NCBI RefSeq assembly: GCF_900239935.1 | Contig: NZ_LT965928.1 | Location: 2,435,520 to 2,499,519 of the forward strand | Source of the DNA: Pseudoalteromonas carrageenovora IAM 12662 | Lineage (GTDB): Bacteria; Pseudomonadota; Gammaproteobacteria; Enterobacterales; Alteromonadaceae | DNA: 64,000 nucleotides | Reading direction: 5' to 3' | Shown: piece after piece, positions 15,696 through 54,334 of the stretch | Numbering within the stretch: position 1 is the stretch's first letter | Layout: each line of letters starts with the position of its first letter | Translations under genes and position numbers: made by a program | The notes under the pieces: generated by a model | Databases searched by the model: none | Told to the model about the DNA's origin: nothing | What the model saw: only the letters and a program-made list of their open reading frames with translations

Positions 15696-15697
15696 CG

Positions 15698-21177: not shown

Positions 21178-21178
21178 A

Positions 21179-23247: not shown

Positions 23248-23267
23248 AATTGTGACCCTTATTCTAT

Positions 23268-31020: not shown

Positions 31021-31848
31021 ATGTCAGATTTAAAAACCATGATAGAAAACGCGTGGGACAACCGCGACAGCATTAGCCCAAGCACCGTATCTAGCGATGT
31101 TAAACAAGCTATTATCGACGCACTAGAACTACTTGATAGCGGCGCTGCCCGCGTTGCAGAAAAAATATCAGGCGAATGGGTTGTACACCAATGGCTTAAA
31201 AAAGCCGTATTACTGTCGTTTCGTATTCGCGACAATCAACCACTGAACGACGGCGTAAACCAATTTTACGACAAAGTACCGCTTAAATTTAGCGACTACA
31301 CGCCGGAGCAATTTCAGCAAGGCGGCATGCGCGTAGTACCAAATGCGGTTGCCCGCAAAGGCAGCTTTGTAGGTAAAAACGTCGTACTTATGCCATCGTA
31401 CGTAAACATTGGCGCATACGTTGACGAAGGCACCATGGTTGATACATGGGCCACTGTAGGCTCATGTGCACAAATTGGTAAGAACGTACATTTATCTGGC
31501 GGCGTTGGCATAGGCGGCGTTTTAGAGCCACTACAAGCTAACCCAACCATCATTGAAGACAATTGTTTTATTGGCGCACGTTCTGAAATTGTTGAAGGCG
31601 TAGTAGTAGAAGAAGGCGCTGTAATTTCAATGGGCGTTTACATCAGCCAAAGCACCCGTATTTACGACCGTGAAACCGGCGAAATTCACTACGGCCGCGT
31701 ACCAGCAGGCGCCGTAGTTGTACCAGGTGCACTACCGTCAAAAGATGGCACTCACAGCCTTTATGCTGCAATCATCGTGAAAAAAGTAGATAAGCAAACA
31801 CGTGAAAAAGTAGGCATAAACGCCCTACTACGCTCGATTGATGATTAA
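31021..31848 (+). CDS. dapD: 2,3,4,5-tetrahydropyridine-2,6-dicarboxylate N-succinyltransferase
   Basis: Succinylates tetrahydrodipicolinate in the lysine/diaminopimelate pathway. The 275 residues match the E. coli length (274). An N-terminal helical region (about 1-100) is followed by a left-handed beta-helix of hexapeptide repeats ([19 protein letters not shown] is the family signature) and a short C-terminal part. It starts 9 bp after glnD with an AAGGA site. Confidence 0.97.
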
Positions 31849-32022: not shown

Positions 32023-32367
32023 TCAATCAAGTAGCATTATTTTTGTCTTAATCAATAACGTATTAACTGGATCTTCTATCTTGAAGTCATACATGTAGTC
32101 TGTTTCTGTATTGAATCTTTTTAAATAATAACTAACTAATGGATCATAGCCACTCTCATGTAGCCAACTGTAAAACTTCCCTAACTCATAACTTAGCTTT
32201 TGACTTAAGTCTGATTTAGGTTCAAGAAGCCCGTCATTATCTAAATCTTTAATATTCATCAATTGAAGGTTTATTTTTATTTCATCAATTAATGGCTCTA
32301 GCGACCTTCTATAATTAGTAGCTTTAATTTCAAGGTCTGGCTCTAAAGGCTCGGCTTCGTAAACCAT
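32023..32367 (-). CDS. Hypothetical protein, 3' piece of the frameshifted gene
   Basis: 114 residues from the first ATG (MVYEAEPLEPDLEIK). The frame is open for about 70 more codons upstream without any ATG, GTG or TTG, which argues that this is the tail of a longer protein rather than a separate gene. Confidence 0.35.
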   Translation of the reverse strand: MVYEAEPLEPDLEIKATNYRRSLEPLIDEIKINLQLMNIKDLDNDGLLEPKSDLSQKLSYELGKFYSWLHESGYDPLVSYYLKRFNTETDYMYDFKIEDPVNTLLIKTKIMLLD

Positions 32368-32516
32368 AATTAAATTATCAATTACATCATTATAGTAATC
32401 ATTGTTTAATCTTACCTTAGACTCATCTTTTAAAATATATAACTGATCTAAAGTAGATGCTTTAGTCTGTATAGGCTGCTTAGTTAAATTCAGCTTAAAA
32501 TCGTTAAATAATTTTG

Positions 32517-33107
32517 TTATTGCTTGAGATAGAACATCAAGATAGTTGTATCTCTTAAGAAGGAAAAAAATAGTTCGTGAGAGTTAAGAACCATCACAAG
32601 ATCACTTTCATCCACTTTATTACTATATAAGTTAACAGTAAGCTCATCATTATCCATGTGGTCATCATAAGGCCAACTAGCAAACCTTTTACAGTCTGAA
32701 TGATTCAAATTTACGGGATGAGCACCAAATGAAGCTCTTATTGATTTAAAGTAGCTGTTGTCGTCCTCATCAAATAAACGATTTGTAAAACACTCCTTTT
32801 CGCCGGAGAAAGGTAAAGTCCTCGGGTTTATAAACACTCGGTGTAGTTGGGTTATTGCTTCTGAAACGAGATCTATTGCAGAAATTAAAGAAAACATCTG
32901 CATTACACGCACATCAATATTTTCCTCAAACCCTGAGGTATGTTGTAAATACCTAATCGATACAGTGATCCAGTCCATACAAGAACAAATTAGATTCCAT
33001 TGGTTTTTGCCATTTTTATTATGATAAGTGTTATAAATAAAACTAGAATTTGAATTAACGAGATCTCTAAAACCTGAAATTTTTTCATCCCTAATTGTTC
33101 TTTCCAT
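32517..33107 (-). CDS. Hypothetical protein, 5' piece of the frameshifted gene
   Basis: This is what would be translated if the frameshift is real: 196 residues beginning MERTIRDEKISGF. The last about 15 residues (from the T-run to FYLKQ) are out of frame with the likely parental protein. There is no signal peptide or membrane helix. The function is unknown. Confidence 0.5.
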   Translation of the reverse strand: MERTIRDEKISGFRDLVNSNSSFIYNTYHNKNGKNQWNLICSCMDWITVSIRYLQHTSGFEENIDVRVMQMFSLISAIDLVSEAITQLHRVFINPRTLPFSGEKECFTNRLFDEDDNSYFKSIRASFGAHPVNLNHSDCKRFASWPYDDHMDNDELTVNLYSNKVDESDLVMVLNSHELFFSFLRDTTILMFYLKQ

Positions 33108-33319
33108 TAAGATTCACTCACAGATCATAATAAGATTTAAAATATCATCGTAAACATAACTTTATAAAGTAAAAGTGGGTGTTTAATCAAAATAATAAAA
33201 AACACTTGCTTTAAAGCAACACACATATACAAACAAATGACTGAATTAGCCAACTCACTCAAGATATAATAAGGTAGTAAAGCATAATTGAAAGTTAGCA
33301 ATTAATATTAAGGATTAAT

Positions 33320-35350
33320 ATGACAAAAACTGCTTTACGCTCAACTATTTTGCTACCGGTATTTTTGCCTGCAGTGTTTATTATTCTGCTCTTGGTAATT
33401 GGTACAAGTAGCAATCCTGAACTTGCAGGGCAAGCATTTAGTGTCACCCTCAAGTGGATAACAGAAACCTTTGGCTGGTTTTATATGTTATCAGTCGCGA
33501 TTTTCTTAGTTTTCATCGTTTGTGTTGCAACCTCCAGCTGGGGCAATATTAAGCTGGGCCCTGATCATGCGCAGCCGCAATATAGCTTCGGTGAATGGTT
33601 TGCCATGCTATTTTCGGCCGGCTACGGAGTCGCATTACTATATTTTGGTGTAGCAGAGCCCGTACTCCATTATGCATCTCCGCCCGCGGGCGCAGCAGAA
33701 ACCGTCGATGCTGCCAAGCAAGCTATGCAAATTGCATTTTTTCATTGGGGTTTTCACATATGGGCAATCTATGGGATTGTCGGCTTAGTCCTTGCTTATT
33801 TTGCATTTCGCCATGGCCTTCCACTGTCGATTCGCTCAGCGTTGTATCCACTTATTGGTGATAAAATATATGGCCCTATTGGTCACACTGTTGATGTGTT
33901 TGCCATATTAGGCACGCTATTTGGCATTGCTACAACACTAGGACTTTCCGTTACCCAAATTAATGCTGGGCTGCATTATTTATGGCCGAGTATTCCTATT
34001 AATACCACAGTACAAATTACTGCTATTGCCATTATTACCGCAGCGGCTACGCTCTCTGTAGTGGCAGGTATGGATAAAGGTGTAAAACGCTTATCTATTG
34101 TAAACATGACACTTGCAGTGTCGTTAATGGCTTTTGTATTTTTTATTGGCCCTACTATTCATATTCTTGAATCGTTTTTACAAAATACCGGCAGCTACCT
34201 TAGCGGTATTGTTGAGCGTACTTTTAATTTACAGGCGTATAGCCGTAGTGATTGGATTGGTAACTGGACACTATTTATATTTGGCTGGACTATTGCTTGG
34301 GCGCCATTTGTTGGTATGTTTATCGCTAAAATTAGCCGCGGCAGAACCATCAGGCAATTTGTTGTTGGCGTGATGCTAGTCCCAACTATTTTTACCTTTT
34401 TGTGGTTTTCTGTGTTTGGTGATACCGCGTTAAATCTAATAATGAATGAAGGGTTCAATACTTTAATTACTGATGTTCAAGCAAACCAAGCTGTTGCATT
34501 GTTTCAGTTATTTGAGGTGTTACCGTTATCATTTATTATTTCGCTACTGACGGTTATTTTAATCATTACCTTTTTTGTTACTTCGTCTGACTCAGGATCA
34601 TTAGTTATTGATTCCCTCGCCTCTGGCGGGAGTATTAATACGCCTGCATGGCAACGCGTATTTTGGGCTGTGCTAGAGGGCGCTGTGGCTGCTGTTTTAT
34701 TAGTAGCAGGTGGGTTAAGTGCGCTACAAACTATGACTATAGCCAGTGCCTTACCCTTTGCGATTATTATGCTTATTGCAACCGCCGGGCTTTGGCGAGC
34801 ACTCACCATTGAAGGCCATCGCGATACTAGCTTACAAGCACATGCGCTTAATGGCCGTAATGTTAACTTATCTCATTGGAAGCGCCGTTTAGCCGCCATG
34901 GTTAATTACCCTAATAGAGAAAAAGTACACACCTTCATTAGTAGTGTGGTGGTACAAGCAATGCAAGCCGTTCAGGCTGAATTAAAAGCACGACAATGGC
35001 ATGCAGAGGTTGATTTTGATACCGACTTAGGCCGTGCTCATTTAACTGTGCTACGCCATGAGCATGTTGATTTTGTATATGACATTCGTCTAACCGAACA
35101 CCCTATGCCAAGCTTTGCCTATTCAGAGCTGAAACCTGAGATTGATAACACCGAAATGTATTACAAGGCTGATGTTTTCTTACGTCGTGGTGGGCAATCT
35201 TACGATGTGTATGGTTACAGTGAAGATGATATTGTGAAAGATATTCTTGATCAATTTGAGAATTACTTACACTTTTTAGGTAACAGCCCAGGTGAGCTAC
35301 CTTGGGATATGGCCGAGCACGATGACATGTTAAATAGCGATAAATCTTAA
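33320..35350 (+). CDS. BCCT-family transporter, BetT-like
   Basis: A secondary transporter for choline, betaine or carnitine-type quaternary amines. The 676 residues match the long BetT type (677 in E. coli): about twelve membrane helices (13-500) followed by a cytoplasmic C-terminal domain of about 170 residues. Family signatures are FSAGYGVALLYFGVAEP (98-114) and GWTIAWAPFVGMFIAKISRG. The first reads GYGVAL where sodium-coupled BetP has GMGIG, so proton coupling as in BetT is more likely. No choline dehydrogenase genes are adjacent, so the substrate is an inference. A terminator follows. Confidence 0.85.
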   Translation: MTKTALRSTILLPVFLPAVFIILLLVIGTSSNPELAGQAFSVTLKWITETFGWFYMLSVAIFLVFIVCVATSSWGNIKLGPDHAQPQYSFGEWFAMLFSAGYGVALLYFGVAEPVLHYASPPAGAAETVDAAKQAMQIAFFHWGFHIWAIYGIVGLVLAYFAFRHGLPLSIRSALYPLIGDKIYGPIGHTVDVFAILGTLFGIATTLGLSVTQINAGLHYLWPSIPINTTVQITAIAIITAAATLSVVAGMDKGVKRLSIVNMTLAVSLMAFVFFIGPTIHILESFLQNTGSYLSGIVERTFNLQAYSRSDWIGNWTLFIFGWTIAWAPFVGMFIAKISRGRTIRQFVVGVMLVPTIFTFLWFSVFGDTALNLIMNEGFNTLITDVQANQAVALFQLFEVLPLSFIISLLTVILIITFFVTSSDSGSLVIDSLASGGSINTPAWQRVFWAVLEGAVAAVLLVAGGLSALQTMTIASALPFAIIMLIATAGLWRALTIEGHRDTSLQAHALNGRNVNLSHWKRRLAAMVNYPNREKVHTFISSVVVQAMQAVQAELKARQWHAEVDFDTDLGRAHLTVLRHEHVDFVYDIRLTEHPMPSFAYSELKPEIDNTEMYYKADVFLRRGGQSYDVYGYSEDDIVKDILDQFENYLHFLGNSPGELPWDMAEHDDMLNSDKS

Positions 35351-35384
35351 ATAAGCATCGTATTTAATACACAATTAATGCAAT

Positions 35385-35411
35385 AAAAAAGGCACTGAAA
35401 AGTGCCTTTTT
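35385..35411 (+). terminator. Terminator after the BCCT transporter
   Basis: GGCACT and AGTGCC pair around a GAAA tetraloop, with an A6 run on the left and T5 on the right. It sits 35 bp past the transporter stop. Confidence 0.88.
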
Positions 35412-35440
35412 AGTTTGCTCAATTAATTTTTAATTACAGT

Positions 35441-35518
35441 GCGTTAAATATGTCGTCTGTTTTAGCTGCGCAAATAAAGTCGTTTTTGTATAGCAACATA
35501 ATAGTTTCTCTACCCCAC
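35441..35518 (-). pseudogene. Decayed 3' remnant of phhB
   Basis: Positions 35441-35493 match the 3' end of the intact phhB (40549-40601) in the same orientation: 49 of 53 bases by my alignment, 37 of them contiguous. Translated, it still reads [18 protein letters not shown] followed by a stop. Then about 30 bp seem deleted, and 35503-35518 resumes similarity (13 of 16) to 40632-40647. The rest of the gene is gone. The remainder of the 35351-35756 gap holds the BCCT terminator and AT-rich sequence with no clear promoter or small gene. Confidence 0.85.
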
Positions 35519-35756
35519 ATCATCAGAAGTAAAATAATTAAATTTCTATTGCCCTAAGTTACATTAAAATAAAATTTACATCGTTAACTTAGTGGTGATA
35601 TAACTGAGTGTGTTTTGGGGACGAGTTGATGTATATTCAGACTGTTAGCTGCTAGATATTAACCTCACATCCTTTTTATAAGGAAAGTGAAAACTCTAAC
35701 TTAAATAACGTTTAGCCTATTTTTAAAATAATAAAAGCACTTAGCAGGTTGTACTA

Positions 35757-36995
35757 ATGGAAGAGTATTTAATCGTAAAACAAAAAAAGAAAGCTCCATT
35801 CATAATTGGGACTTTATTGTTGTTAATAGCTCTTGGCTATTTAATTAAATTAGCACTATTCTCTGATGGCATACCTGCTCGTTATTTGAAACCAATACTT
35901 GTTACTAAAATATCCTCACCTAATGTATTAAAAGGGATTGGTACAATAGAGCCTACACAAAGAGAGCTTTTGTCTGCGCCGCTAAAAGGCAATATAAAAG
36001 CACTTACAATTCGTGAAGGGCAAGCTATAAAAAAAGGCCAAGTATTGGCAAAGCTAACTAACTACGAGTTGGAACAAGATATACATAATGCGAGCTATGA
36101 GCAGCTTAATTTAGAATCTCAGGTGGCTATTGATAAAAGCAATTTAACAATCAAGCTCTCGCAAATCAAAGTAGACTTATCTAAAGCCCAAATGGCATTA
36201 CAGCAGCAATCGCTTGAATTAAATGCTAATAAAGTTTTATTGGAACAAGGTATTATTTCTGCAATTCGCTTTAAACAAAGCGAAATGCTTTACAAGCAAA
36301 GTGAACTTGAAGTTAATGCTAAAAATGATGAACTTGGCCTATTTAAAGATGCATTTGATCAGCAATTAATTGCGCTTGATAACAAAGTAAACATCGCCAA
36401 AAACAAACTTAGTTATTTACAAAGGCGCCAAGAGCAATTAACACTCACAGCAAACTTTGACGGTACCGTAAGCCAAAACTTAGCTAAATTAGGTCAAGCG
36501 GTCACACAAGGGCAATCGTTGTTTGAGTTAATAGAGACCGACAACTTACTCGCTAAAATACAAGTTCCTCAATATTCATCTACTCAGTTAAAGATAGGCC
36601 AAAAAGCAGACATAGTTACGCCCAGTGGCACAATTGCAGCTAAGGTTGATTATATTGATACGGTAATAAGAAATGGTGCTATTAACGTATTTTTAGTATT
36701 AAACGCCCCCCCACCATCATGGCTTAGAAGCAGCCAAGCAATAGAAGCTCATATTTATTTAGAGAAATCTCTACTCGTTCAAAATATTCCAAAACCGAAT
36801 GACTTTGATAGTCATAGCCAGTGGAAGATTTATGAAGTAACACCATCAAGTAAAGCTATTCTTACTCATATAAATTACAAATCGAGCGAGCGAGATACGT
36901 TAAGCTTCAACGAACCATTAAAAAGTAACTATGTGTTGTTACTGCCTGCTGATTACGCCACTGAAAATAACTTTGACTTGATAGGTGCTTTTTGA
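35757..36995 (+). CDS. HlyD/MacA-type membrane-fusion protein of an ABC exporter
   Basis: Periplasmic adaptor that would link an inner-membrane ABC pump to an outer-membrane channel. The 412 residues have a short cytoplasmic start, one membrane anchor (about 15-35), a lipoyl-like half (LKGNIKALTIREGQAIKKGQ), a long alpha-helical hairpin (about 105-225), the second lipoyl half (TANFDGTVSQNLAKLGQ) and a beta-barrel. The ATG follows AGG with an 8-nt spacing. Its stop overlaps the ATPase gene by 4 bp. It is the first gene of a four-gene plus-strand cassette. The substrate is unknown and no outer-membrane channel gene is present. Confidence 0.82.
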   Translation: MEEYLIVKQKKKAPFIIGTLLLLIALGYLIKLALFSDGIPARYLKPILVTKISSPNVLKGIGTIEPTQRELLSAPLKGNIKALTIREGQAIKKGQVLAKLTNYELEQDIHNASYEQLNLESQVAIDKSNLTIKLSQIKVDLSKAQMALQQQSLELNANKVLLEQGIISAIRFKQSEMLYKQSELEVNAKNDELGLFKDAFDQQLIALDNKVNIAKNKLSYLQRRQEQLTLTANFDGTVSQNLAKLGQAVTQGQSLFELIETDNLLAKIQVPQYSSTQLKIGQKADIVTPSGTIAAKVDYIDTVIRNGAINVFLVLNAPPPSWLRSSQAIEAHIYLEKSLLVQNIPKPNDFDSHSQWKIYEVTPSSKAILTHINYKSSERDTLSFNEPLKSNYVLLLPADYATENNFDLIGAF

Positions 36996-37675
36996 TGAGT
37001 TATCCGCTGATAGAGTTTAATAATGTTTTTTATCAATATCCTAATACCAAAGTGAATACACTTAAAGCTATAAACTTTAAAATAAACAGTGGCGATTATA
37101 TTGCAATTACGGGCACCTCAGGCAGTGGTAAAAGTACCCTACTTTCTATTTTAGGTTTGTTAAATTTACCCAGCCAAGGGCAATACACTATTTTAGGCAC
37201 TAACACAGCAGACTTAACACCCGATGCTATTGCAGCTATTAAAAACAGAGAGCTTGGCTTTATATTTCAAAACTTTAATTTGTTAAATCATTTAAGCGTA
37301 TTTGATAACGTTGCTTTACCACTGAGTTACAACAAATCAGTGCCTAGAAAGGACTACCTAAATAAAGTTAAAGCTGCACTTAATAAAGTAAGCATGCTTG
37401 AGTTTATTGATAGAAAACCAAGCCAATTGTCTGGCGGGCAACAACAAAGAGTTGCTATTGCTAGAGCATTAATAAATGATCCCTTTGTTATTTTAGCCGA
37501 CGAGCCAACCGGTAATTTGGATTCGAGAAATAGCGAGCAAATATATCAGTTACTCAATAAGCTAAACGACGAAGGTAAAACAATTTGTTTAATTACCCAT
37601 GATGAAAACCATGCTAAAACAGCAAAAACGCGTTTGTATATTCAAGACGGACAGCTAAGTGCGCAAGGTTTTTAA
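36992..37675 (+). CDS. ABC transporter ATP-binding protein, MacB/LolD class
   Basis: Powers the adjacent permease. The 227-residue cytoplasmic ATPase has Walker [10 protein letters not shown] near residue 39, Q-loop FIFQNFNLL, signature [15 protein letters not shown] and Walker [13 protein letters not shown]; the [10 protein letters not shown] form is typical of the MacB/LolD/FtsE group. The stop overlaps the permease start by 1 bp (TAATG), so the two are coupled. Confidence 0.92.
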
Positions 37676-40035
37676 TGCTGAACTTTATTACTGATCTGAC
37701 CTTTAACTGGCTAAAATATGCTAAGCAAAATACTAAATTATGGCTTAGCTGTTTGTTGCTTAGTATTCCTTTATGTTTAATTTTAAATATAAGTAACATT
37801 CATAGTCAGTTTTTATCAGCCGATTACACTGCAATAAATAACATTCATAACATTAAACAAGTTTACTTAAGTGACACTCAAAATGACTTACCCGTTGATG
37901 AATACATTTTTGATGAAATAACCGTATTGCACCCAGATTTAGTCGGCGTTTTTGAACGCTCTATCGATTTATCATTAAAGCTTTCGGTTAATCATGATAG
38001 TGAGGCCGTTAAGGTAAGCTTTATATCGGGGGGTTATAAACAATTAGGTATCATTCCTGCTTTAGGCAGCTTTGAACAATTAGATTACCCAAAACAAGGC
38101 AGCGCAATAAGTGCCGCTATTAGCTATTCGTTTTGGCATACTCATTTTAAAGGTGTCACTGATATTATTGGCAAACAGCTTGTGGTTAATAATAAAAGCA
38201 TAAACATTGTTGCTGTAATGCCAAAAGAGTTTAAAAGCTTTAAACGCGCCTATGAACCTAAACTTGTTATTCCTTACTCGCAACTCAAGCGTATTTTGCC
38301 TCAAGAAAGTAACCTGACCCCAGATACATTTACGTATATTCTAGGAAACGTTAAAAATAAAACACTTTTCTTAAACTTGCTAAATAAGCACTTACAAAAC
38401 GAAATGTTTATATTTGATAACACCGAACTTAAGTTTAGTGATGGTATTGGCGTCAACCCAACTCACTTTAATAAAATAATAAAGCGCCTAAACTTATTGC
38501 AGTTACTATATTATATTTTACTCTCATTTAGCTTTATTGCCTTTTGTGCATTTTACTGTGCAGAGTCAATTAAAAAGCAACAAGAAGAAACTATACGCAA
38601 ATTATGCGGAGCCAATAACACTCACATTTTTGTGCAGCAAATTATTGATATCGTACTCACAAGCCTACTGCTTATTATTGTAATGTGCGTTTTTTATCCA
38701 CTGAGCGACAGTATCAGCGCAATTTTATTACCAAGCCTGAACCAGCAAAGCAGCTCTTTTTCATTATTTACGCTGGCGGTATTTTACATCGTTATTATTA
38801 CTTGTTTATCGGCGCTTAATTACTTTCAAAGAAAGTGGATACACAGCAGTGTTGGACGCGGTCAAAGCGCAACAACAAGCGAAAAAATACAAGTGTTCTC
38901 ATTACTTTCGTTACTTACTAGCCTTGCCATCACAAGTGTTTACATTAGTAGTTTAGTTATTTACAGCCAGATTAATTTAAATAATAAAAACGTGGGATTT
39001 GTTGCTGATAATATTTTAATAGCTAGTTTTAGCTTCCCGCAATCACCTAGCGAGGCCTTTAATGCAAATAACTCTGCTCAACAATTAATTCAGCAATTAA
39101 ATTCACTGCCCATTATTGAAGAAGTATCACTTAGTTCGGCCCCACCACTATCAAAACGAAGTGGTTTTAGTTCATGGTACACCGTTACCGGACAAGCTAT
39201 AAGCGCAGGTAAAAATGCCAGTACTGCAAGCCATCGAGTAAGCCCTCAATATTTTAAAACTATTGGCGCTAAGCTTATCTCAGGCCAAAGTGTTCAGTGG
39301 CAGCAATATCAAAAAGTTGTGGTTAACAAAGCCTTATGGGATCAATACTTTGCAAGCACAGAACTAAGCCAAGCTTATTTATTAGCCCAATTTGATACTG
39401 GCAAAGTAAAACATAAAGTAGTTGGCGTTGTTAATGATATTTATAATGAAGGGGCCGATACACCTGTTCAGCCCACTGTGTATAGTGTAATAAGTGCTCT
39501 GACAGGTTTTGAAACAATTATAATTAAAACTCATGCGCCCATCACACAAGTTGAAAAGGAACTCCAAAAGGCAGTAAAAGCATTAAGTGTAAACTTTAAC
39601 GATTTATCACTTACCCCCCTTTCGTCTTTAGTAAAAAATGAGCAAGCCCCTAGAAATGCATTACTTGTAATTACCGTTGTGTGCTCCTCAATTCTTCTAC
39701 TCTCTGCGTTTTTATACAACTACAGTAGTATCAAACAGCTTACTGCTAAGTCATCCACAGAGCTTGCATTAAGACGTGCTATGGGCGCTCGCAGCTACCA
39801 AATATGTTATTTATTTTTAAAGCTCTTTTTTACTGCATTTGTGATAACTCATATAGCTATTATTGCGTTATTTTTCACCCAACATAAAAAACTACAAACT
39901 TTTTTATTTCATCAATCCGTTTTTGACCTAAGCACGATACTTACAGTGCATTTAGTCATTTTGTTAGTGGTTGTATGTATTATTGCTATAGAGATTAAAA
40001 AAACACTGAGTAACTCTTGGAACAACTTAACTTAA
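37675..40035 (+). CDS. ABC transporter permease, FtsX/MacB type with duplicated domains
   Basis: A 786-residue inner-membrane protein built as two MacB-like halves. Each half has a membrane helix (about 20-40 and 420-440), a large periplasmic domain and an FtsX bundle of three helices (about 275-380 and 660-775). PALGSFEQLDYPKQGSA in the first half and GAKLISGQSVQWQQYQKVVV in the second are the equivalent MacB periplasmic segments. Such transporters export or extract peptides, lipoproteins or antibiotics by mechanotransmission rather than through a channel. The substrate here is unknown. It starts 1 bp inside the ATPase gene. Confidence 0.85.
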   Translation: MLNFITDLTFNWLKYAKQNTKLWLSCLLLSIPLCLILNISNIHSQFLSADYTAINNIHNIKQVYLSDTQNDLPVDEYIFDEITVLHPDLVGVFERSIDLSLKLSVNHDSEAVKVSFISGGYKQLGIIPALGSFEQLDYPKQGSAISAAISYSFWHTHFKGVTDIIGKQLVVNNKSINIVAVMPKEFKSFKRAYEPKLVIPYSQLKRILPQESNLTPDTFTYILGNVKNKTLFLNLLNKHLQNEMFIFDNTELKFSDGIGVNPTHFNKIIKRLNLLQLLYYILLSFSFIAFCAFYCAESIKKQQEETIRKLCGANNTHIFVQQIIDIVLTSLLLIIVMCVFYPLSDSISAILLPSLNQQSSSFSLFTLAVFYIVIITCLSALNYFQRKWIHSSVGRGQSATTSEKIQVFSLLSLLTSLAITSVYISSLVIYSQINLNNKNVGFVADNILIASFSFPQSPSEAFNANNSAQQLIQQLNSLPIIEEVSLSSAPPLSKRSGFSSWYTVTGQAISAGKNASTASHRVSPQYFKTIGAKLISGQSVQWQQYQKVVVNKALWDQYFASTELSQAYLLAQFDTGKVKHKVVGVVNDIYNEGADTPVQPTVYSVISALTGFETIIIKTHAPITQVEKELQKAVKALSVNFNDLSLTPLSSLVKNEQAPRNALLVITVVCSSILLLSAFLYNYSSIKQLTAKSSTELALRRAMGARSYQICYLFLKLFFTAFVITHIAIIALFFTQHKKLQTFLFHQSVFDLSTILTVHLVILLVVVCIIAIEIKKTLSNSWNNLT

Positions 40036-40043
40036 GGATAAAC

Positions 40044-40481
40044 ATGTACAAATCAATTATAGCCTTACTACTTTTGTATAGCGGTAACACGTACGCCGAG
40101 AATTATAGCTTCTCGCATTATCAGATAGTTAAGTCACCCATTAATAATACCGCTCCGCAAATGTTTTTATTTAACAGCAAAGGCGAGTTAATGCATTACT
40201 CAGATAAATATTTACCAAATATTTTATCTATTTTTAAAAATAAACAAATCCATCCTGATTCTGATTTACTTAAAAGTAATCTAGAGCAACTATTAATAAC
40301 ATTACCCGATTTTACTCAGCAAAAGTATACGTTAATTTACACTTCGATAGATGAAGATGTAGGCCCTTGTCCACCTTGTAGGCAGCAAGAAAAAACTATC
40401 GGCATTCTCAAAAATAAGTTTTCTGATAAACAGCTAAAGGTTCATTCAATTTCTATCAATGCTAGTGACGATGGCGTATAA
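40044..40481 (+). CDS. Small exported CPPC-motif protein, thioredoxin-like
   Basis: 145 residues from the ATG at 40044, which has an AAGGA site 7-8 nt upstream. An alternative ATG at 40017 lies inside the permease gene and would spoil the signal peptide. Residues 1-18 form a signal peptide (cleavage near TYA-EN). The C-terminal part reads TLIYTSIDEDVGPCPPCRQQ, a CxxC redox motif in a thioredoxin-like setting, but only about 35 residues follow it, fewer than a full thioredoxin fold needs. It is the last gene of the cassette, which suggests a redox role in substrate maturation or pump function. The function is unproven. Confidence 0.72.
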   Translation: MYKSIIALLLLYSGNTYAENYSFSHYQIVKSPINNTAPQMFLFNSKGELMHYSDKYLPNILSIFKNKQIHPDSDLLKSNLEQLLITLPDFTQQKYTLIYTSIDEDVGPCPPCRQQEKTIGILKNKFSDKQLKVHSISINASDDGV

Positions 40482-40516
40482 AAAAGCCCGCTAAAGTTAA
40501 TTTAGCGGGCTTTTTA
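40480..40516 (+). terminator. Terminator at the end of the ABC cassette
   Basis: An AAAAAAGCCCGCTAAA arm pairs with TTTAGCGGGCTTTTT around a 5-nt loop and starts at the stop of the CPPC gene. The arms are symmetric, so it can also end the convergent phhB message. Confidence 0.9.
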
Positions 40517-40541
40517 TTGCGAAGACTAACCTGAAGTAACC

Positions 40542-40886
40542 TTAAAGCGCGTTAAACACATCGTCTGTTTTAGCTGCGCAAATAAAGTCGTTTTTGTGTA
40601 GGCCTTTAATTGAATGGCTCCACCACGTTACAGTTACTTTGCCCCACTCGGTTAATAAACCAGGGTGATGGCCTTCATCTTCTGCCATGTCGCCCACTTT
40701 GTTAGTAAATGCGATAGCTTGTTTAAAGTTTTTAAATTTATAAACACGTTCAAGCTGCATAATGCCGTCGCGTACTTCGGGTACCCAGTCTGGGATTTTA
40801 GTAATTAATTGTGCAAGCTCTTCGTCAGATACTTTTGGTGCATCTACGTGGCAAGCTTCGCATTTTTGTTCACTTAATGAAGACAT
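40542..40886 (-). CDS. phhB: 4a-hydroxytetrahydrobiopterin dehydratase
   Basis: Pterin-4a-carbinolamine dehydratase, which regenerates the pterin cofactor after phenylalanine hydroxylation. The 114 residues include the active-site region [20 protein letters not shown] and end in the conserved tail [17 protein letters not shown]. It follows phhA by 37 bp. Its last 53 bases are repeated at 35441-35493 on the other side of the ABC cassette. Confidence 0.95.
40549..40601 (-). repeat. Intact partner of the phhB 3'-end direct repeat
   Basis: This 53-bp stretch of the phhB coding end is the second copy of the repeat at 35441-35493, in the same orientation. Four mismatches were counted. The two copies bracket about 5.05 kb that holds the four-gene ABC cassette. 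Confidence 0.85.
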
Positions 40887-40923
40887 CTTAAATCCTTACT
40901 TTAGCGTTTCTTTTAAATTAAAG

Positions 40924-41721
40924 TTAACTAGCTAATTTTTCTTTTGGTGGAAATTTTGGGTCATGCAAGCCAAGCTCTTTAGCTTGCTCAACCAAAGTCA
41001 TAATGTCCATTTGCGATATATCAAACAGATCATGAATCGAATTAATGGTGTAGTACTGTGGTTGCATAATATCAATACGGTACGGCGTACGCAGCACATC
41101 AATTACGCTCATAGGCGTTATTTCTGGTGTGTCTGAATACACGTATTGCGTTTCACCCGGGCTTGATAAAATACCGCCGCCGTAAATACGCAGGCCGTTT
41201 TCGGTTTGCATTAAACCAAACTCAACCGTAAACCAATACATACGTGCAAGGTACACGCGATCTTTTTTCTGTGCTGCGTAACCTAGTTGGCCGTATTTAT
41301 GTGTAAATTCGGCAAAGTCAGGGTTAGTTAGCATGGCGCAGTGGCCAAATATTTCATGGAAAATGTCAGGTTCTTGAAGGTAGTCAAACTCTTCACGGCT
41401 ACGAATAAACGTGGCTACCGGAAATTGTTTGTTTGCCAATAACCTAAAAAACTCATCAAAATCGATAAGCGCAGGTACAGGCGCTACTTGCCAACCAGTG
41501 GAGGCAAGAAGCACTTCATTAAGCTCGCTTAACTGCGGAATACGATCGTGTGGTAGGTTTATTTTTTTAAGCCCCTCCATGTACTCATCGCACGCCTTGC
41601 CTTCTATGCACGCAAGTTGGCGTGCTACAAGCTCAGACCAAATTTTATTTTCTTCTTCGCTCCAGTGTATAACACCATTTTCGTCTGGTGTTTTAGAGGT
41701 GTATTTACTTGCTTTAGCCAT
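40924..41721 (-). CDS. phhA: Phenylalanine-4-hydroxylase
   Basis: Pterin- and iron-dependent monooxygenase that converts phenylalanine to tyrosine. The 265 residues match bacterial PhhA (262 in P. aeruginosa). The iron ligands are in DIFHEIFGHCAML (two His) plus a Glu in the following YWFTVEFGLM segment. It is paired with phhB for cofactor recycling. The 237-bp gap upstream to megL shows no clear promoter, terminator or small gene. Confidence 0.96.
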   Translation of the reverse strand: MAKASKYTSKTPDENGVIHWSEEENKIWSELVARQLACIEGKACDEYMEGLKKINLPHDRIPQLSELNEVLLASTGWQVAPVPALIDFDEFFRLLANKQFPVATFIRSREEFDYLQEPDIFHEIFGHCAMLTNPDFAEFTHKYGQLGYAAQKKDRVYLARMYWFTVEFGLMQTENGLRIYGGGILSSPGETQYVYSDTPEITPMSVIDVLRTPYRIDIMQPQYYTINSIHDLFDISQMDIMTLVEQAKELGLHDPKFPPKEKLAS

Positions 41722-41958
41722 AATAACCTTCTTGGGGTTAAGCCCTAAATGTGTGTCAGTGTGATACTCAAGATTAGTGAATATCTAATGCAGCCATACT
41801 ATGCAAAAGTGAAGAAAAGTTTAATAGTTAGGCGGATATCTACATTTAGCACGATCCACTAAAGTGTATAGTTAAAATTACACCACCGACATTAATATTA
41901 TACAACCACTAAATCAAAGGCTCTAAGGACAAACCCAACTGTACATAAATAAATACAC

Positions 41959-43140
41959 CTAACAAATCAATGTAAAAGCTTGGTTTAAGTCGTCAATAAT
42001 ATCGTTAACATCTTCAAGCCCGACAGAGAGTCTTATTAAGCCATCACTTATGCCTGCAGCTGCTCGCTCCTGTGGTGTGTAAGGAGAGTGCGTCATTGAT
42101 GCGGGGTGCTGAATAAGCGTTTCGGCATCACCTAAACTTACAGCAAGTGTGCAAAGCTTCATGCTATCTATAAACTGCGCTCCTTGGGCAAGGGTGCCTT
42201 TAATTTCAAATGCAATAACGCCGCCTGCGGCTTTCATTTGATTGCCTATGTATTTATTACCTGGGTGCGATTTAAGCCCTGGGTAATAAACAATATTAAC
42301 TTGCGGATGCCCCTCTAAGTATTCAGCTACTGTTTGTGCGCTTTGGCAGTGACGCTCCATGCGTATAGCTAAAGTTTTCAAGCCGCGGTTTATTAGCCAA
42401 GCGTCGTGCGGGCTTATGGTTGCACCAATATCTTTAAGTACCGTCATTTTTATTAAGGTAATGTGCTCAAGCGACCCACACACAAGCCCTGCTACAACAT
42501 CACCATGGCCGTTTAAATATTTGGTGGCGCTGTGCATAATAATATCTATACCGTACTGCTTAGGTGATTGCAGTAACGGGGTTAAAAAGGTGTTGTCGAC
42601 CACACTAATTAAATTGTGTTGTTTAGCGAGCGCGCCAATTAAGGCTAAATCAATGACTGCCATTGTGGGGTTGATTGGCGTTTCTACAAATATCATTTTT
42701 GAATTAGGTTTTATAGCAGCGCGAAGCTCGCCCTCGTTGGTCATATCAACAAAAGTAACTTCAATTCCCCAGCGCGGTAACATGTGAGCAAAAAACGCAA
42801 AAGTACATCCATATAATGCACTTGATGCAATTAAATGATCGCCCTGCGATAAAAAGCTTAATACCGACGCCGATACAGCGCCCATACCTGTGGCGGTGGC
42901 AGCTGCAGCTTCGCAGCCTTCTAACTGTGCTACTTTTTGCTCAAGTTCGGTGGTGGTTGGATTACCTAGGCGGGTGTAAATATAACCTGGCTCTTCGCCT
43001 GCAAAACGTGCGGCGCCTTGTGCTGCATTTTCAAAATGAAAGGTAGAGGTTTGATACAAAGGCGACGTGAGTGCGCCGTGAGGATCGTTTGCTTTTTGTG
43101 GGCCATGGATACATTGGGTATTAATATGATGCTTGCTCAT
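41959..43140 (-). CDS. megL: Methionine gamma-lyase
   Basis: PLP enzyme that splits methionine to methanethiol, 2-oxobutyrate and ammonia. The 393-residue Cys/Met-metabolism-family protein has the Schiff-base lysine K207 in SATKYLNGHGD and the segment ALYGCTFAF with Y110 and C112. That cysteine is the hallmark of methionine gamma-lyase over cystathionine gamma-synthase or beta-lyase. The C-terminal SLGDAETLIQHPASMTHS region also fits. Methanethiol and DMS-type volatiles from such enzymes are common in marine bacteria. It is a single-gene unit. Confidence 0.88.
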   Translation of the reverse strand: MSKHHINTQCIHGPQKANDPHGALTSPLYQTSTFHFENAAQGAARFAGEEPGYIYTRLGNPTTTELEQKVAQLEGCEAAAATATGMGAVSASVLSFLSQGDHLIASSALYGCTFAFFAHMLPRWGIEVTFVDMTNEGELRAAIKPNSKMIFVETPINPTMAVIDLALIGALAKQHNLISVVDNTFLTPLLQSPKQYGIDIIMHSATKYLNGHGDVVAGLVCGSLEHITLIKMTVLKDIGATISPHDAWLINRGLKTLAIRMERHCQSAQTVAEYLEGHPQVNIVYYPGLKSHPGNKYIGNQMKAAGGVIAFEIKGTLAQGAQFIDSMKLCTLAVSLGDAETLIQHPASMTHSPYTPQERAAAGISDGLIRLSVGLEDVNDIIDDLNQAFTLIC

Positions 43141-43282
43141 TGTGTGATCTCGTTTTTATTATGTGTGTCAATTACATAAATAAAACGCACCGCACTTTAA
43201 ATCACAAGCATGCCGGATGCTCAGATGGCTATTTGTGCAAAAACCGTTCAGTACGATTTTGTACACAAATATTGCCACTTTT

Positions 43283-44311
43283 TTATTGCGTTGGCTCGCC
43301 CTTATTACGGTTCATAATTTTACTGGCAATACTTTGCACTGTACCTTTTAACAAGCTGCGTTTGTTTTCAAGCCTTGGCAGTGGGCGGCTAAGCTCCATT
43401 GCTTTGTAACCAATACGCGCTGTAAAAATACCCGCGCTTACGCCCTGTGCAGCCCGACCCGAAAGTTTACCTAAAAGCTCAGCACTGAGTGCTGTGGCTG
43501 CTAAATCAGATACAAGCTCAGCACTACCTACAAACATCACTTGTTTTATAAGCATACGGTAGAGCTTAATGCGGCTTGCGTAACCAAAACCAATGCCATA
43601 AATTTTACCAATTTGTTCTATTAACTTAGTACCGCGCCAAAGCACGGCCATCATATCCACCAGCGCAAGTGGGCTTAAGGCAACTAGCAATGCTGACTCT
43701 GTCGCAAAACGATTTATAAGCTTTTTAGCTTTGGTGTCTTGCGTTATGAGTAAGCTATTCGCGTAAAGGGTCATTATTTCTTTATCGCTATGATGGGTAG
43801 CTACTTGGTTTTTAAACGCTTCGAAGTTGTCGAGTTGTTGGTGCTTGTTTAGCTTTTCAAGCCACGGCAATGCGCCGCCTACTTGCTCACTATTTAAAAG
43901 CCTATCCGCTTCATGACGGTGTAACTGATTGCGCTTTAAACTGCGCAGCATTCTATATTCGCGCCAGAGCATGCGCCCAATTAATAGCACACCACTTACC
44001 ACGGCTGTTAAATATACGCCGCCTAAAATTACCGATTGCTGAAATGCAAATACTAGCGAATAAGCAAACTCAAGTAGCACCAGTACTAAAAAGCTGACAA
44101 CAAACACACCTTTAAGCGTTTGCCATTTTGACTTTTTATATACCGGCTCTAACTCTATTTCATCTTCAAGAAGCTCATCATCAGGCTCTTCAATGTATTC
44201 ACTTTGACCTTGAGCAACTATTTTTGCAGGGGCAAGTTTAGGCTCAATCTGCTCATCTGCTTGGGTATTAATACGCCTACCCGCTTGAAATGTTTGGTGT
44301 GTATCGTTCAT
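43283..44311 (-). CDS. ycjF: YcjF family (TIGR01620) inner-membrane protein
   Basis: 342 residues: a long acidic N-terminal region (about 1-70), two adjacent membrane helices (about 70-115), then a DUF697-type C-terminal domain (ALSPLALVDMMAVLWRG). It overlaps ycjX by 4 bp and belongs to the psp regulon in related bacteria. The molecular role is not established. Confidence 0.9.
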   Translation of the reverse strand: MNDTHQTFQAGRRINTQADEQIEPKLAPAKIVAQGQSEYIEEPDDELLEDEIELEPVYKKSKWQTLKGVFVVSFLVLVLLEFAYSLVFAFQQSVILGGVYLTAVVSGVLLIGRMLWREYRMLRSLKRNQLHRHEADRLLNSEQVGGALPWLEKLNKHQQLDNFEAFKNQVATHHSDKEIMTLYANSLLITQDTKAKKLINRFATESALLVALSPLALVDMMAVLWRGTKLIEQIGKIYGIGFGYASRIKLYRMLIKQVMFVGSAELVSDLAATALSAELLGKLSGRAAQGVSAGIFTARIGYKAMELSRPLPRLENKRSLLKGTVQSIASKIMNRNKGEPTQ

Positions 44312-45787: not shown

Positions 45788-46189
45788 TTAAAGTTTGTTG
45801 ATTTCACGGCTAACCGTAAACTCGCTTGAAGTAACATGGCGTTCCATATCTTGAAGGCGCGAATCTACTCGCCCTAAACGCTCTTTTAAGTCTTGCAATG
45901 CGCGGCGCGGAGGCTCGCCTTTTTGCCATACTTTAAATTTAACTTCTAGCGGATCGTCAGTTTTAGTTGCGCTGCTTGTATGTGTAGTTGTGGGGTCTTT
46001 TTTATCTAAAATAAACCACGCTGCAATATACGCTACCACAAATAATGGGCCACCTGTTAGCAGTACCGCACTAACAAATATAATGCGAACTAACCATAAC
46101 TCCATATTAAAGTAGTCACTTAATCCCGCACATACACCTGCTATTTTACCGCGTTGTGGGTCTCTTAATAATTCGCGTTTGGCACTCAT
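45788..46189 (-). CDS. pspC: Envelope stress response membrane protein PspC
   Basis: Inner-membrane partner of PspB that senses membrane damage and recruits PspA away from PspF. From the ATG at 46189 (133 residues) it has the PspC domain RDPQRGKIAGVCAGLSDYF, a hydrophobic segment (about 33-60) and a C-terminal leucine-zipper-like helix. I prefer this start, since it overlaps the pspB stop (ATGA) and has GGAGA 8 nt upstream; the ORF extends to an ATG at 46204. Confidence 0.94.
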   Translation of the reverse strand: MSAKRELLRDPQRGKIAGVCAGLSDYFNMELWLVRIIFVSAVLLTGGPLFVVAYIAAWFILDKKDPTTTHTSSATKTDDPLEVKFKVWQKGEPPRRALQDLKERLGRVDSRLQDMERHVTSSEFTVSREINKL

Positions 46190-46419
46190 ACTTTGCGTCT
46201 CCATTGTGGTGACTCTTGATCAAGTAATGCTTCAAGGGTTTCTACTCGGTCAGCCATTTTTTCGGCTTTTTGAGCAAGCTCAAGTAATTGGCGGTGTTCA
46301 TGCTCACTTAAACCTTGGCTTACTTGTTTTTTGCTACGGTAGTGTAAAATTAACCACAGTGGCGCAACAAAAATCATAAACAAGATAAATGGTGCAACTA
46401 GTATCTCTGGATCAAACAT
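46186..46419 (-). CDS. pspB: Envelope stress response membrane protein PspB
   Basis: A 77-residue inner-membrane protein with an N-terminal helix (about 8-28) and a cytoplasmic coiled coil, ending in ESPQWRRKV, a tail conserved in PspB. It works with PspC as the sensor. It lies between pspA (67 bp) and pspC (overlap). Confidence 0.95.
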   Translation of the reverse strand: MFDPEILVAPFILFMIFVAPLWLILHYRSKKQVSQGLSEHEHRQLLELAQKAEKMADRVETLEALLDQESPQWRRKV

Positions 46420-46486
46420 AATCCTCTCCTGACAATCCGTATTCGATGTTTTAAGCAGTGGGGCACTTTAAGTGCCCCTTTATAAG

Positions 46487-47146
46487 TTATTTATCAGCTA
46501 GCTTCTTTTTAAGTTCGGCTAACTCATCATCTATCTTTTCATTTTTTTGTAAGTCTGCAATTTCGTCTGCTAATGTTTTCTTACCTAAGTCGTACGACTC
46601 TATTTGAGATTCTAGTCCATCAATTTTAGTTTCGTAGCGTTCAAAGCGATTAAGTGCATCTTCTACTTTAGAGCTATCAAGCGCTTTTTTCACTTCAAGG
46701 CGCGACTCAGCCGAGCGTTGACGTAAAATAATTGCCTTTTGACGTGACTTAGCATCAGCTAGCTTTTCTTGCAGCGTGGTGACTTCTTGCTGAAGTTTCT
46801 CAATATGAGACTCTACATGCTCAAGCTCACCTTCTACAGCAGCTGCGGCTTCAGCCGACTTTTGCTTTTCAAGCAATGCTGAGCGTGCTAAATCGTCGCG
46901 ATCTTTGCTAAGAGCTAGCTCGGCTTTATCTTGCCAATCACTTACTTGCGCCTTTAATGCTTCTGCACGACGTACAATTTCTTTTTTCTCAGCGAGTGTT
47001 TTAGCTGACGTAGAGCGTACCTCTACTAATGTGTCTTCCATCTCTTGGATAATAAGACGAACCATTTTTTCTGGGTCTTCTGCTTTATCTAAAATGGCAT
47101 TGATATTAGAATTAACAATGTCTGCAAAACGTGAAAAAATTCCCAT
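46487..47146 (-). CDS. pspA: Phage shock protein PspA
   Basis: Peripheral membrane protein of the ESCRT-III/Vipp1 family. It inhibits PspF in normal growth and builds scaffolds on damaged membrane under stress. The 219 residues are almost entirely coiled coil, with N-terminal MGIFSRFADIVNSNINAILDK forming the amphipathic helix and RLIIQEMEDTLVEVRS the family signature. It is first in pspABC-ycjXF, with a sigma-54-type promoter upstream and pspF divergent. Confidence 0.97.
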   Translation of the reverse strand: MGIFSRFADIVNSNINAILDKAEDPEKMVRLIIQEMEDTLVEVRSTSAKTLAEKKEIVRRAEALKAQVSDWQDKAELALSKDRDDLARSALLEKQKSAEAAAAVEGELEHVESHIEKLQQEVTTLQEKLADAKSRQKAIILRQRSAESRLEVKKALDSSKVEDALNRFERYETKIDGLESQIESYDLGKKTLADEIADLQKNEKIDDELAELKKKLADK

Positions 47147-47193
47147 AACATTTACCTCTGTAATTTAAACTTAGTTAGTCTGCTGTAACTAGT

Positions 47194-47209
47194 ATCAATA
47201 TGCTTGCCA
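47194..47209 (-). promoter_or_regulatory. Sigma-54-type promoter of the psp operon
   Basis: On the minus strand TGGCAAG-CATA-TTGAT matches the sigma-54 consensus TGGCAYG-N4-TTGCW, with GG and the -12 element correctly spaced; the -12 pair is GA rather than GC. It lies about 50 bp upstream of pspA and within the pspA/pspF intergenic region, where PspF would bind further upstream. Confidence 0.7.
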
Positions 47210-47332
47210 ACTTTTTAAAAACTAAAATACACTTTATTTTCATTAAGTTAAACTAAATATACAAATTCCTTTAGTTATCCTTAATTATGAAATACACTAA
47301 CTGTTAGTAAAAATGACCAAGAGTTAGGATAT

Positions 47333-48397
47333 ATGAGCCAATATCGCCAACAGGATAATTTACTCGGCCAATCTGATAGCTTTTTAGCTGTACTTGATCA
47401 GGTATCGCAGTTAGCTAATTTAGATAAACCGGTATTAATTATTGGTGAACGCGGTACGGGTAAAGAGCTCATCGCTGCGCGTTTACACTTTTTATCTAAA
47501 CGTTGGGATCAAAACTACGTAAAACTAAATTGTGCAGCCCTTAACGAAAACCTCCTCGAAAGCGAATTGTTTGGTCATGAAAGCGGTGCTTTTACCGGTG
47601 CAAGCAAACGCCATGAAGGCCGCTTTGAACGTGCCAATAGTGGCACTTTATTTTTAGATGAGCTGGCAAACACATCACCTATGGTACAAGAAAAGCTCCT
47701 ACGTGTAATAGAGTATGGCGAATTTGAACGTGTGGGCGGTAAGCAAACCGTAAAAGTTGATACCCGTTTAGTGTGTGCAACTAACGAAGATTTACCGCAC
47801 CTTGCACAGCAAGGTGAATTTAGAAGCGACTTACTTGACCGCTTAGCTTTTGATGTAATTACTCTGCCGCCACTGCGCGAACGTCAAGACGATATTATGT
47901 TACTTGCCGAGCAATTTGCGATGAACATGGCCCGCGACCTAGAGTGGGAGTTATTTAGTGGCTTTACCCGAAGCGCGACCGAAACCCTGTTAAGTTACGA
48001 TTGGCCAGGTAATATACGTGAGCTTAAAAATGTAGTTGAGCGCAGCTTATATCGCCATGGCAGCGAACATATTCCCGTTCATCAGATTATTTTAGACCCA
48101 TTTGAAAGCCGCTTTAGACCAAAAGCGCGTATTAAAGCCCCTATCCCAGCGCAAGTTGTTGCACAAGAGCCCGCTTTGGCTCCTGCGCCGAGTGCTTTAC
48201 CTAAAGCAGAGCCCGGGGAAGAAATACAGTTTCCGTGTAGCTTAAAAGAGCGTTCTAACGAGTTTGAAATAAATATGATTAATAAAGCACTCGAACATAG
48301 CCAATTTAATCAAAAGAAAACTGCAGAAGTACTTGGTTTAACGTATCATCAATTACGTGGTTATCTTAAAAAATACAACTTGTTGGATCAACAATAG
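47333..48397 (+). CDS. pspF: Phage shock operon transcriptional activator PspF
   Basis: A sigma-54 enhancer-binding protein. The 354 residues lack an N-terminal sensing domain, as in known PspF, and start directly with the AAA+ domain: Walker A GERGTGKE, the GAFTGA loop and the DLLDRLAFDVITLPPLRER region. A C-terminal Fis-type helix-turn-helix ends the protein. A Pro/Ala-rich linker (about 265-295) precedes it, which makes it longer than the E. coli protein (325). It is divergent from pspA and precedes sapA. Confidence 0.95.
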   Translation: MSQYRQQDNLLGQSDSFLAVLDQVSQLANLDKPVLIIGERGTGKELIAARLHFLSKRWDQNYVKLNCAALNENLLESELFGHESGAFTGASKRHEGRFERANSGTLFLDELANTSPMVQEKLLRVIEYGEFERVGGKQTVKVDTRLVCATNEDLPHLAQQGEFRSDLLDRLAFDVITLPPLRERQDDIMLLAEQFAMNMARDLEWELFSGFTRSATETLLSYDWPGNIRELKNVVERSLYRHGSEHIPVHQIILDPFESRFRPKARIKAPIPAQVVAQEPALAPAPSALPKAEPGEEIQFPCSLKERSNEFEINMINKALEHSQFNQKKTAEVLGLTYHQLRGYLKKYNLLDQQ

Positions 48398-51934: not shown

Positions 51935-52927
51935 ATGCAATTACTTGATGTTCGTAACTTAACGATTGAACTACGCACCTCTGAGACGGTAATTAGAGCC
52001 GTAGACAGAGTGAGTTTTAGCCTAAAAGAAGGTGAAGTACATGCACTTGTAGGTGAGTCTGGTTCAGGTAAAAGCTTAATAGCAAAAGCTATTATTGGCG
52101 TATTAAACGAACGCTGGCATATAACAGCCGACCGTATACACTGGCGCGGTGTTGATTTAATGCGCTTAAGCCCAGAGCAGCGCCGTAAAATAGTAAGCCA
52201 AGACATCGCCATGATTTACCAAGATCCAAGTAGATGCCTTGACCCTACCGCAAAAATATTTGACCAAATAGCCGAAACACTGCCTGAAGTTGCTCGCAAA
52301 GGTTTCTTTTTAAAGCGCAACCGCGAGAGAAAAGACCGCGTAAAAGCACTTATTCATAAGGTCGGTATTAAAAATCACGAAGCTGTACTTAGTAGTTACC
52401 CGCATGAGCTCTCAGAGGGCGTGTGCCAAAAAGTAATGATTGCCATGGCCATTGCTCGTACGCCTAAGCTTTTAATTGCTGATGAGCCTACTACAGCGCT
52501 TGAAAGCACCACACGCGCGCAAGTTTTTAGATTACTAAAAAGCTTAAACCAACTTAAAAACATGTCTATTTTGATGATATCCCATGAACTTGAAGAAATT
52601 GCCCATTGGTCACACGGCATCCATGTTTTGTATTGCGGACAAATGGTAGAAGCAGGCCCTACTCATCAAATATTTAAACAACCTAGACATCCATATACAC
52701 AAGCGCTATTAAAAAGCTTGCCCGACTACGAGCAAGGCTTAGCCCATAAAGAGCCGTTTTATGCGCTTAAAGGTACTATTCCTACATTACAACATTTGCC
52801 TATTGGCTGCCGATTGGGGCCGCGTTGCCCACAAGCACAAAAAGCATGTGTCGTTACACCCGCTTTAACTAAGCATCATGGTCATAGTTATGCGTGTCAC
52901 TTTCCGCTAATTAAGGACATGAAGTAA
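51935..52927 (+). CDS. sapD: Sap ABC transporter ATPase SapD
   Basis: First ATPase (330 residues) of the Sap complex. Walker A GESGSGKS and Walker B LLIADEPTTALE are present; the signature reads LSEGVCQKVMIAMA, a deviation shared with E. coli SapD (LTEGECQ). The C-terminal oligopeptide/dipeptide transporter tail PIGCRLGPRCPQAQKAC has conserved cysteines, which hold a Fe-S cluster in related DppD. The stop overlaps sapF by 1 bp. Confidence 0.92.
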   Translation: MQLLDVRNLTIELRTSETVIRAVDRVSFSLKEGEVHALVGESGSGKSLIAKAIIGVLNERWHITADRIHWRGVDLMRLSPEQRRKIVSQDIAMIYQDPSRCLDPTAKIFDQIAETLPEVARKGFFLKRNRERKDRVKALIHKVGIKNHEAVLSSYPHELSEGVCQKVMIAMAIARTPKLLIADEPTTALESTTRAQVFRLLKSLNQLKNMSILMISHELEEIAHWSHGIHVLYCGQMVEAGPTHQIFKQPRHPYTQALLKSLPDYEQGLAHKEPFYALKGTIPTLQHLPIGCRLGPRCPQAQKACVVTPALTKHHGHSYACHFPLIKDMK

Positions 52928-53688: not shown

Positions 53689-53721
53689 TGCAGTTTTTTG
53701 TAATGTAAGCGCATTTTAGAA

Positions 53722-53756
53722 GGTCTTGTTATTAACTTTTACTTTTTAACAAGACC
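53722..53756 (+). terminator. Hairpin after sapF, directly before the VOC gene
   Basis: GGTCTTGTTA and TAACAAGACC form a perfect 10-bp stem with a 15-nt loop, followed by GTTT and, after one more base, the next gene's ATG at 53762. It could end the sap message or reduce translation of the next gene. The U-run is short, so it may be a weak terminator or attenuator. Confidence 0.55.
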
Positions 53757-53761
53757 GTTTC

Positions 53762-54244: not shown

Positions 54245-54293
54245 CCCCGTAAAATGATTAGTATTATAGGCCCCCCTAATTCAAGACAATAAA

Positions 54294-54314: not shown

Positions 54315-54334
54315 AGTATGCTTGCTAAAACAAC

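Follow-up and report, generated by a model that had tools for sequence, protein, structure and literature searches.

Organization of the dapD-phhB interval

The stretch of DNA analysed here, which we call the window, comprises 64,000 nucleotides of Pseudoalteromonas carrageenovora IAM 12662 (contig NZ_LT965928.1, positions 2,435,520 to 2,499,519). Within it, two convergent genes, dapD and phhB, bracket an interval that contains a broken cargo gene (c2), a BCCT-family transporter gene and a four-gene ABC exporter cassette. A short copy of the phhB 3' end, hereafter the remnant, lies on the far side of the cassette from the intact gene. An initial annotation had pointed out this copy and read it as the trace of an insertion or of a tandem duplication that was later filled. 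Relatives are designated by their G-numbers in a collection of the genus, of which 108 genomes were searched. The features of the interval and its flanks are as follows.

31021..31848, plus strand: dapD, the conserved left flank; identity to the nearest relative, G007, drops in its 3' part
32023..33107, minus strand: broken c2 gene, as two open reading frames (ORFs), 32023-32367 and 32517-33107
33175..33230: seam between the upstream regions of c2 and BCCT; left side homologous to G079, G097 and G030, right side to G080, G066 and G036
33320..35350, plus strand: BCCT-family transporter gene (Pfam PF02028; NCBIfam TIGR00842 above cut-off); the nearest NCBIfam model is BetT, with a match below its cut-off
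35386..35413: hairpin and T-run between BCCT and the remnant, read by eye
35434..35493, minus strand: phhB 3'-end remnant, the last 19 codons and the stop
35494..35561: 68 bp at the non-homologous junction, apparently of no recognised origin
35562..35756, plus strand: cassette upstream region, 74.5% identical to G079
35757..36995, plus strand: HlyD-family periplasmic adaptor, by profile matches
36995..37675, plus strand: ABC transporter ATPase, MacB/LolD/FtsE-like, by profile matches
37675..40035, plus strand: 786-aa permease (MacB_PCD); best NCBIfam model the ADOP duplicated permease, below cut-off
40044..40481, plus strand: 145-aa protein; a CPPC motif and a likely signal peptide were recognised by eye
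40542..40886, minus strand: intact phhB, pterin-4a-carbinolamine dehydratase (PF01329; NCBIfam NF002016 above cut-off), the right flank
40887..43750, minus strand: possible right homology arm, with phhA and a gene for a Cys/Met-metabolism pyridoxal phosphate (PLP) enzyme; identity to G007 is lowered

The four cassette genes are present between the intact phhB and its copy. No integrase or transposase family was found by Pfam in six interval proteins (BCCT, the four cassette proteins and the larger of the two c2 pieces), in agreement with the initial annotation, and there is no tRNA gene in the 27-46 kb part of the window.

The phhB repeat had been given as 49 identical bases out of 53, in the same orientation, between 35441-35493 and 40549-40601. 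This was reproduced, and the full repeat is longer: 54 of 60 bases are identical between 35434-35493 and 40542-40601, the stop codon included, with a longest identical run of 37 bp (35453-35489). The two copies are 5,108 bp apart. The alignment score of the remnant, 90, is far above chance, the maximum among 500 dinucleotide shuffles being 34. Within its own genome, phhB matched the intact gene and the remnant and nothing else at an E value of 0.001. The further decayed piece of phhB that the initial annotation placed beyond 35493 could not be established. There, 15 of 30 bases match phhB, and 47 in 10,000 base shuffles were as good, which is nominally improbable; but the scores of a continuation of phhB by local alignment were reached in 88/500 and 52/500 shuffles, and that of an anchored extension was equalled in 83/200, both within the shuffle range.

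Two alleles lie end to end in the window

Homology to relatives divides the interval into blocks. Up to about 33174, the window resembles G079, G097 and G030 (the c2 block). From 33231 to 35493, it is 96.4% identical to G080 (the BCCT-phhB' block, phhB' being the remnant), and from 35562 to 40987 it is 90.3% identical to G079 (the cassette-phhB block). The last two are alleles that are each found apart in relatives, and in the window they stand end to end. Homology to G080 ends at 35493 and homology to G079 begins at 35562; the single non-homologous junction lies between these positions.

What stands next to each phhB copy differs. The intact gene carries downstream sequence of the cassette type, and the remnant carries that of the BCCT type: the 83 bp from BCCT to the remnant (35351-35433) show no mismatch to G080, with the hairpin kept. 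This contrast of contexts indicates that the remnant is the end of the BCCT allele's phhB. The remnant itself matches the phhB of G080 at 56 of 60 bases. Among the four differences, T at base 7 occurs in 8 and G at base 46 in 14 of the 37 relatives lined up, and those at bases 18 and 57 are unique among them. With two common variants and two unique ones, the remnant bases were discarded as a donor label, as they do not decide the direction of transfer.

The BCCT gene also has a history discordant with that of its flanking genes. Its DNA identity to G080 is 96.5%, and at third codon positions it reaches 92%, against a mean of 72% (standard deviation 8.8) for the 29 genes that could be compared with G080, among them BCCT itself. 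One further gene is also at 92%, but there all compared relatives lie at 85-93%. The BCCT tree grouped the window with G080 and G066 (support 100/100). By contrast, the glnD+dapD tree placed the window with G007 (100/100), and a grouping of the window with G080 was rejected (approximately unbiased test, p 3.5e-43). For phhB+phhA, the window joined G097 (97/96), with rejection of both window+G080 (p 1.4e-5) and window+G079 (p 8.6e-4).

For the 68 bp at the junction, a search of the 108 genomes gave short matches only, none spanning the stretch. We considered upstream DNA of c2 from G079 as their origin and rejected it: an anchored extension was equalled by 30/200 shuffles, and local scores were reached by 44/500 and 113/500. 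There is thus no significant match to the G079 left flank, and a MAFFT alignment, though eye-catching, does not stand.

The same flanks hold different cargo in relatives

phhB is present in 99 of 99 and in 9 of 9 genomes of the genus. We compared the phhB neighbourhoods of 38 relatives. In 26 of these and in the window, dapD and phhB bracket the interval, which gives 27 intervals of 286 bp to 9.6 kb; G079 is counted among them although its dapD end is on another contig, and the interval of G007 is broken between contigs. No dapD was seen near phhB in 11 more distant genomes, within roughly 10 kb beside phhB. Over the 27 intervals there are about 15 cargo modules, and the cargo varies even among close relatives. 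dapD-phhB is a variable locus flanked by core genes, with the same flanks and different cargo in relatives.

BCCT occurs in 12 of the 27 intervals. In eight of them (G080, G066, G036, G020, G048, G045, G019 and G067) it adjoins a single phhB, with neither cassette nor remnant; these are the empty sites that the initial annotation expected under an insertion. Other genes stand between BCCT and phhB in G056, G088 and G107. The remnant is absent from all 26 other intervals, that is, from the 25 without a cassette and from G079. G079 has c2, the cassette and phhB in this order and lacks BCCT. The G079 permease is 93% identical to that of the window, the next closest among the 108 genomes being at 46%. 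The initial annotation had held that finding the cassette in all relatives without any remnant would speak against its reading, and G079, the only other close carrier among the 108 genomes, leans towards that outcome.

The other cargo, only part of whose proteins was scanned with Pfam, includes c2, a DUF2971 protein with PDC-S31-like matches, a DUF2804 protein, a TPR protein and three proteins without a Pfam match. An IS4/5-type transposase is part of the cargo of G020. The cargo of the G096 interval (L038) is a pair of genes, one matching AriA and the other AriB, of the kind named PARIS. The defence-like character of this pair and of the DUF2971 protein is suggested by profile matches alone, and the window has no such cargo.

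A second phhB match outside the genome of the window was found in G066 only, where both matches are full length and the assembly has 9% contamination. One contig end of this genome (L043) carries an inverted second copy of part of dapD, which probably arose in the assembly of the contaminated genome. Short, weak matches of 24-32 bp to the intervals' own genes occur in G096, G030 and G045. A dapD match of this sort in G079 was dismissed as an artefact, because the contig from which that interval was taken does not contain dapD.

Probable stacking of alleles by recombination in the flanks

The repeat is best explained as the scar of ordinary DNA exchange, the seam of two alleles, and not as a new mobile element. 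Cargo between dapD and phhB would be exchanged among Pseudoalteromonas lineages through recombination in the conserved flanks, whole alleles moving by homology on the left in dapD and on the right in phhB-phhA and further out. In the window, we infer that homologous recombination in one flank brought in a linear fragment whose other end was joined illegitimately, as in homology-facilitated illegitimate recombination (HFIR). Such an illegitimate end would leave two alleles stacked rather than swapped. The 60-bp remnant would then be the cut-off phhB end of the BCCT allele, and the intact phhB that of the cassette allele. We consider an exchange of alleles of this type, with flank homology and one illegitimate end, likely.

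As for direction, we lean modestly towards a later arrival of a cassette-phhB-phhA fragment whose anchor lay on the side of phhA. This leaning comes from the divergent tract to the right of the cassette and from the 68 bp, which could be cassette-side DNA. The tract is apparent in the comparison with G007. The window is 98.6% identical to G007 just to the left of the locus (26.0-31.0 kb) and 98.4% just to the right of the tract (43.75-46.0 kb), and from phhB to 43.75 kb it is 92.5% identical, which is consistent with imported DNA. Of the 13 bins of this tract, one is at 77.2%, one at 98.0% and the rest at 90.0-97.5%. From about 43.75 kb onwards identity is back at 98.4%, as a crossover there would give; similar dips occur elsewhere. 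In 6 of the 8 bins between 41.7 and 43.75 kb, identity to G036 is higher for the window than for G007, a sign that in this part the window received the DNA. G007 gave no BCCT match at an E value of 1e-200 and no close cassette, in an interval split between contigs.

On the left side, dapD is 96.6% identical to that of G007 overall, with 97.6% at 31021-31399 and 95.8% at 31400-31848. We compared this dip in seven hand-picked sister pairs. The last 400 bp of dapD are the lowest in G009/G080 and G020/G021 and slightly so in G048/G067; they are low, not lowest, in G087/G096, and G045/G019, G019/G081 and G037/G086 show no dip. The dip may be regarded as suggestive only.

Several observations weigh against the stacking of alleles by an HFIR-like event. 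The identity of the window to G007 also dips away from the locus, to 93.4% at 14-24 kb, 92.8% at 46-48 kb and 94.7% at 52-56 kb, so the dip alone is not specific, and recombination is not confined to dapD-phhB. The slight dip at the end of dapD is shared by G048/G067, a pair with similar cargo. The expected parent, c2-BCCT-phhB, is absent from the 27 intervals, and HFIR is rare where it was measured, according to PMC3240628. A weak point is that the close cassette carriers are two genomes only, that of the window and G079. Finally, the 68 bp fit neither parent, so microhomology at the joint cannot be judged. A ComEC-family gene is present in the genome of the window; the same search matched 10 of 14 control genomes and therefore provides no evidence of competence.

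The same hybrid could also have formed in the reverse direction, the donor being G080-like and its BCCT-phhB' fragment entering between c2 and the cassette of a resident, G079-like c2-cassette-phhB allele. Its probability is contained within that of allele exchange as a whole, and taken by itself this direction seems rather unlikely. The BCCT-phhB' block is the one closest to another lineage and is discordant with its flanks, and the neighbouring c2 gene is of the G079/G097 kind, both as this direction would predict. However, two illegitimate junctions would be needed unless the donor had c2, the 68 bp are not recognisable as c2 upstream DNA of G079, and the low-identity tract of about 3.2 kb rightward of phhB would be left unexplained.

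We regard a circular intermediate as improbable. If a circle carried the cassette together with a short 3' end of phhB, a single crossover into the phhB of a BCCT-phhB allele would yield exactly the observed order, and the copy on the circle would restore the gene. In an E. coli assay, the route of partial degradation, ligation and single crossover was about 10 times commoner than HFIR (PMC3240628). Nevertheless, a circle does not account for the divergent tract through phhB and phhA to 43.75 kb or for a cassette without a remnant in G079, and the cassette matched no plasmid or phage by megablast.

A site-specific element that integrates at the 3' end of phhB and duplicates 60 bp as an att-like repeat is very unlikely. 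It would agree with a repeat at a gene end and a gene kept intact, but neither an integrase or transposase family nor a tRNA gene was found in the parts scanned, and none of the 26 other intervals, G079 included, has the remnant. G079 largely refutes this candidate, which we rejected. A tandem duplication of the phhB end that was later filled by the cassette, also raised in the initial annotation, fits the same orientation of the repeat and is the least probable and less economical account: there are two different downstream contexts, not one duplicated, and no empty duplication exists in the 27 intervals.

Taken together, the observation made in the initial annotation was confirmed in part, and its interpretation has partial support. 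An insertion at the gene end whose incoming copy restored the gene survives as one of the two directions that fit, with the intact phhB on the cassette side. The cassette as a simple unit leaving a duplicated end is not supported in that form, given that G079 has no remnant and that BCCT is itself discordant.

Relation to known systems

Here we see the clear footprint of a type of process that is already known. In PMC3240628, HFIR is described in S. pneumoniae, A. baylyi and P. stutzeri. As proposed for the window, one side of the inserted DNA shares homology with the chromosome, the other is joined without any, and no mobile-element gene is involved. There, however, HFIR was studied in the laboratory, by transformation or conjugation; inserts and deletions measured about 1 kb, and most joints had 3-10 bp of microhomology.

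A similar layering is found in the stacked effector-immunity arrays of the Vibrio cholerae type VI secretion system (T6SS), where new cargo beside a conserved anchor displaces the old and older pieces are left; an HFIR-like mechanism was proposed for the leftover immunity genes (PMC5361080). In that system the upstream part of the cargo serves as anchor and the immunity genes left behind are complete, whereas here a core gene would be the anchor, and 60 bp of it were left.

The locus as a whole resembles the core defence hotspots cDHS1 and cDHS2 of P. aeruginosa in its fixed core flanks, its changing cargo with defence-like genes and the lack of a single mobilising element. For these hotspots, PMC10250203 suggests transfer by flank homology; recombination of this sort would produce no scar of a mobile element, and its authors defer the matter to later studies. 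The difference is one of size and content: cDHS1 has a median of 26 kb, whereas dapD-phhB mostly holds one to five genes, only partly defence-like, and no tRNA gene was found at its flank. Illegitimate recombination has been invoked for many small variable segments (PMC2884548). A literature search linking dapD with phhB turned up nothing beyond a proteome map.

How cargo moves in core-flanked hotspots without mobile-element genes is an open question, and in the window the seam can be read. The comparison with G007 suggests, in addition, how far imported DNA may reach into the flanks. Cut-off ends of core genes could be searched systematically as footprints of allele stacking.

Judging from the repeat, excision of the DNA between the two copies by recombination, as the initial annotation proposed, is possible. 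A more general and unlikely extension is that the locus swaps small cargo between species without an integrase and can stack it, the cut-off ends then serving as direct repeats for later exact removal by RecA or slippage. If this were true, the locus would gain by imprecise joining and lose by precise excision.

The cassette and other observations

We claim no specific function for the cassette, because all NCBIfam matches listed for its three transporter proteins are below the curated cut-offs. These are to multidrug adaptor, MacB, LolD, ADOP and darobactin-export models (for the ATPase, 25 of 188 matches were listed). Across 35757-40481, the cassette resembles the darobactin-export models DarC, DarD and DarB, again below the cut-offs. 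The 145-aa CPPC protein has no family match in Pfam or NCBIfam. A plasmid or phage origin was set aside after megablast gave no match to the cassette in either collection, where records very near the genome itself may be absent. Two database permeases, with 92% and 80% identity, sit on contigs of about 5 kb.

The c2 ORF of 361 aa is whole in G079, G097 and G030 and split into two ORFs in the window; the intact G097 copy had no Pfam or PADLOC match.

Elsewhere in the window, the dips of identity to G007 at 14000-24000, 46000-48000 and 52000-56000 stand beside stretches of 97.6-98.7%. For a 160-aa ORF at 53762-54244, the stretches compared in G097, G069 and G036 contain no counterpart. Its third-position identity is 65-70% to G080, G087 and G007 and 89% to G037.

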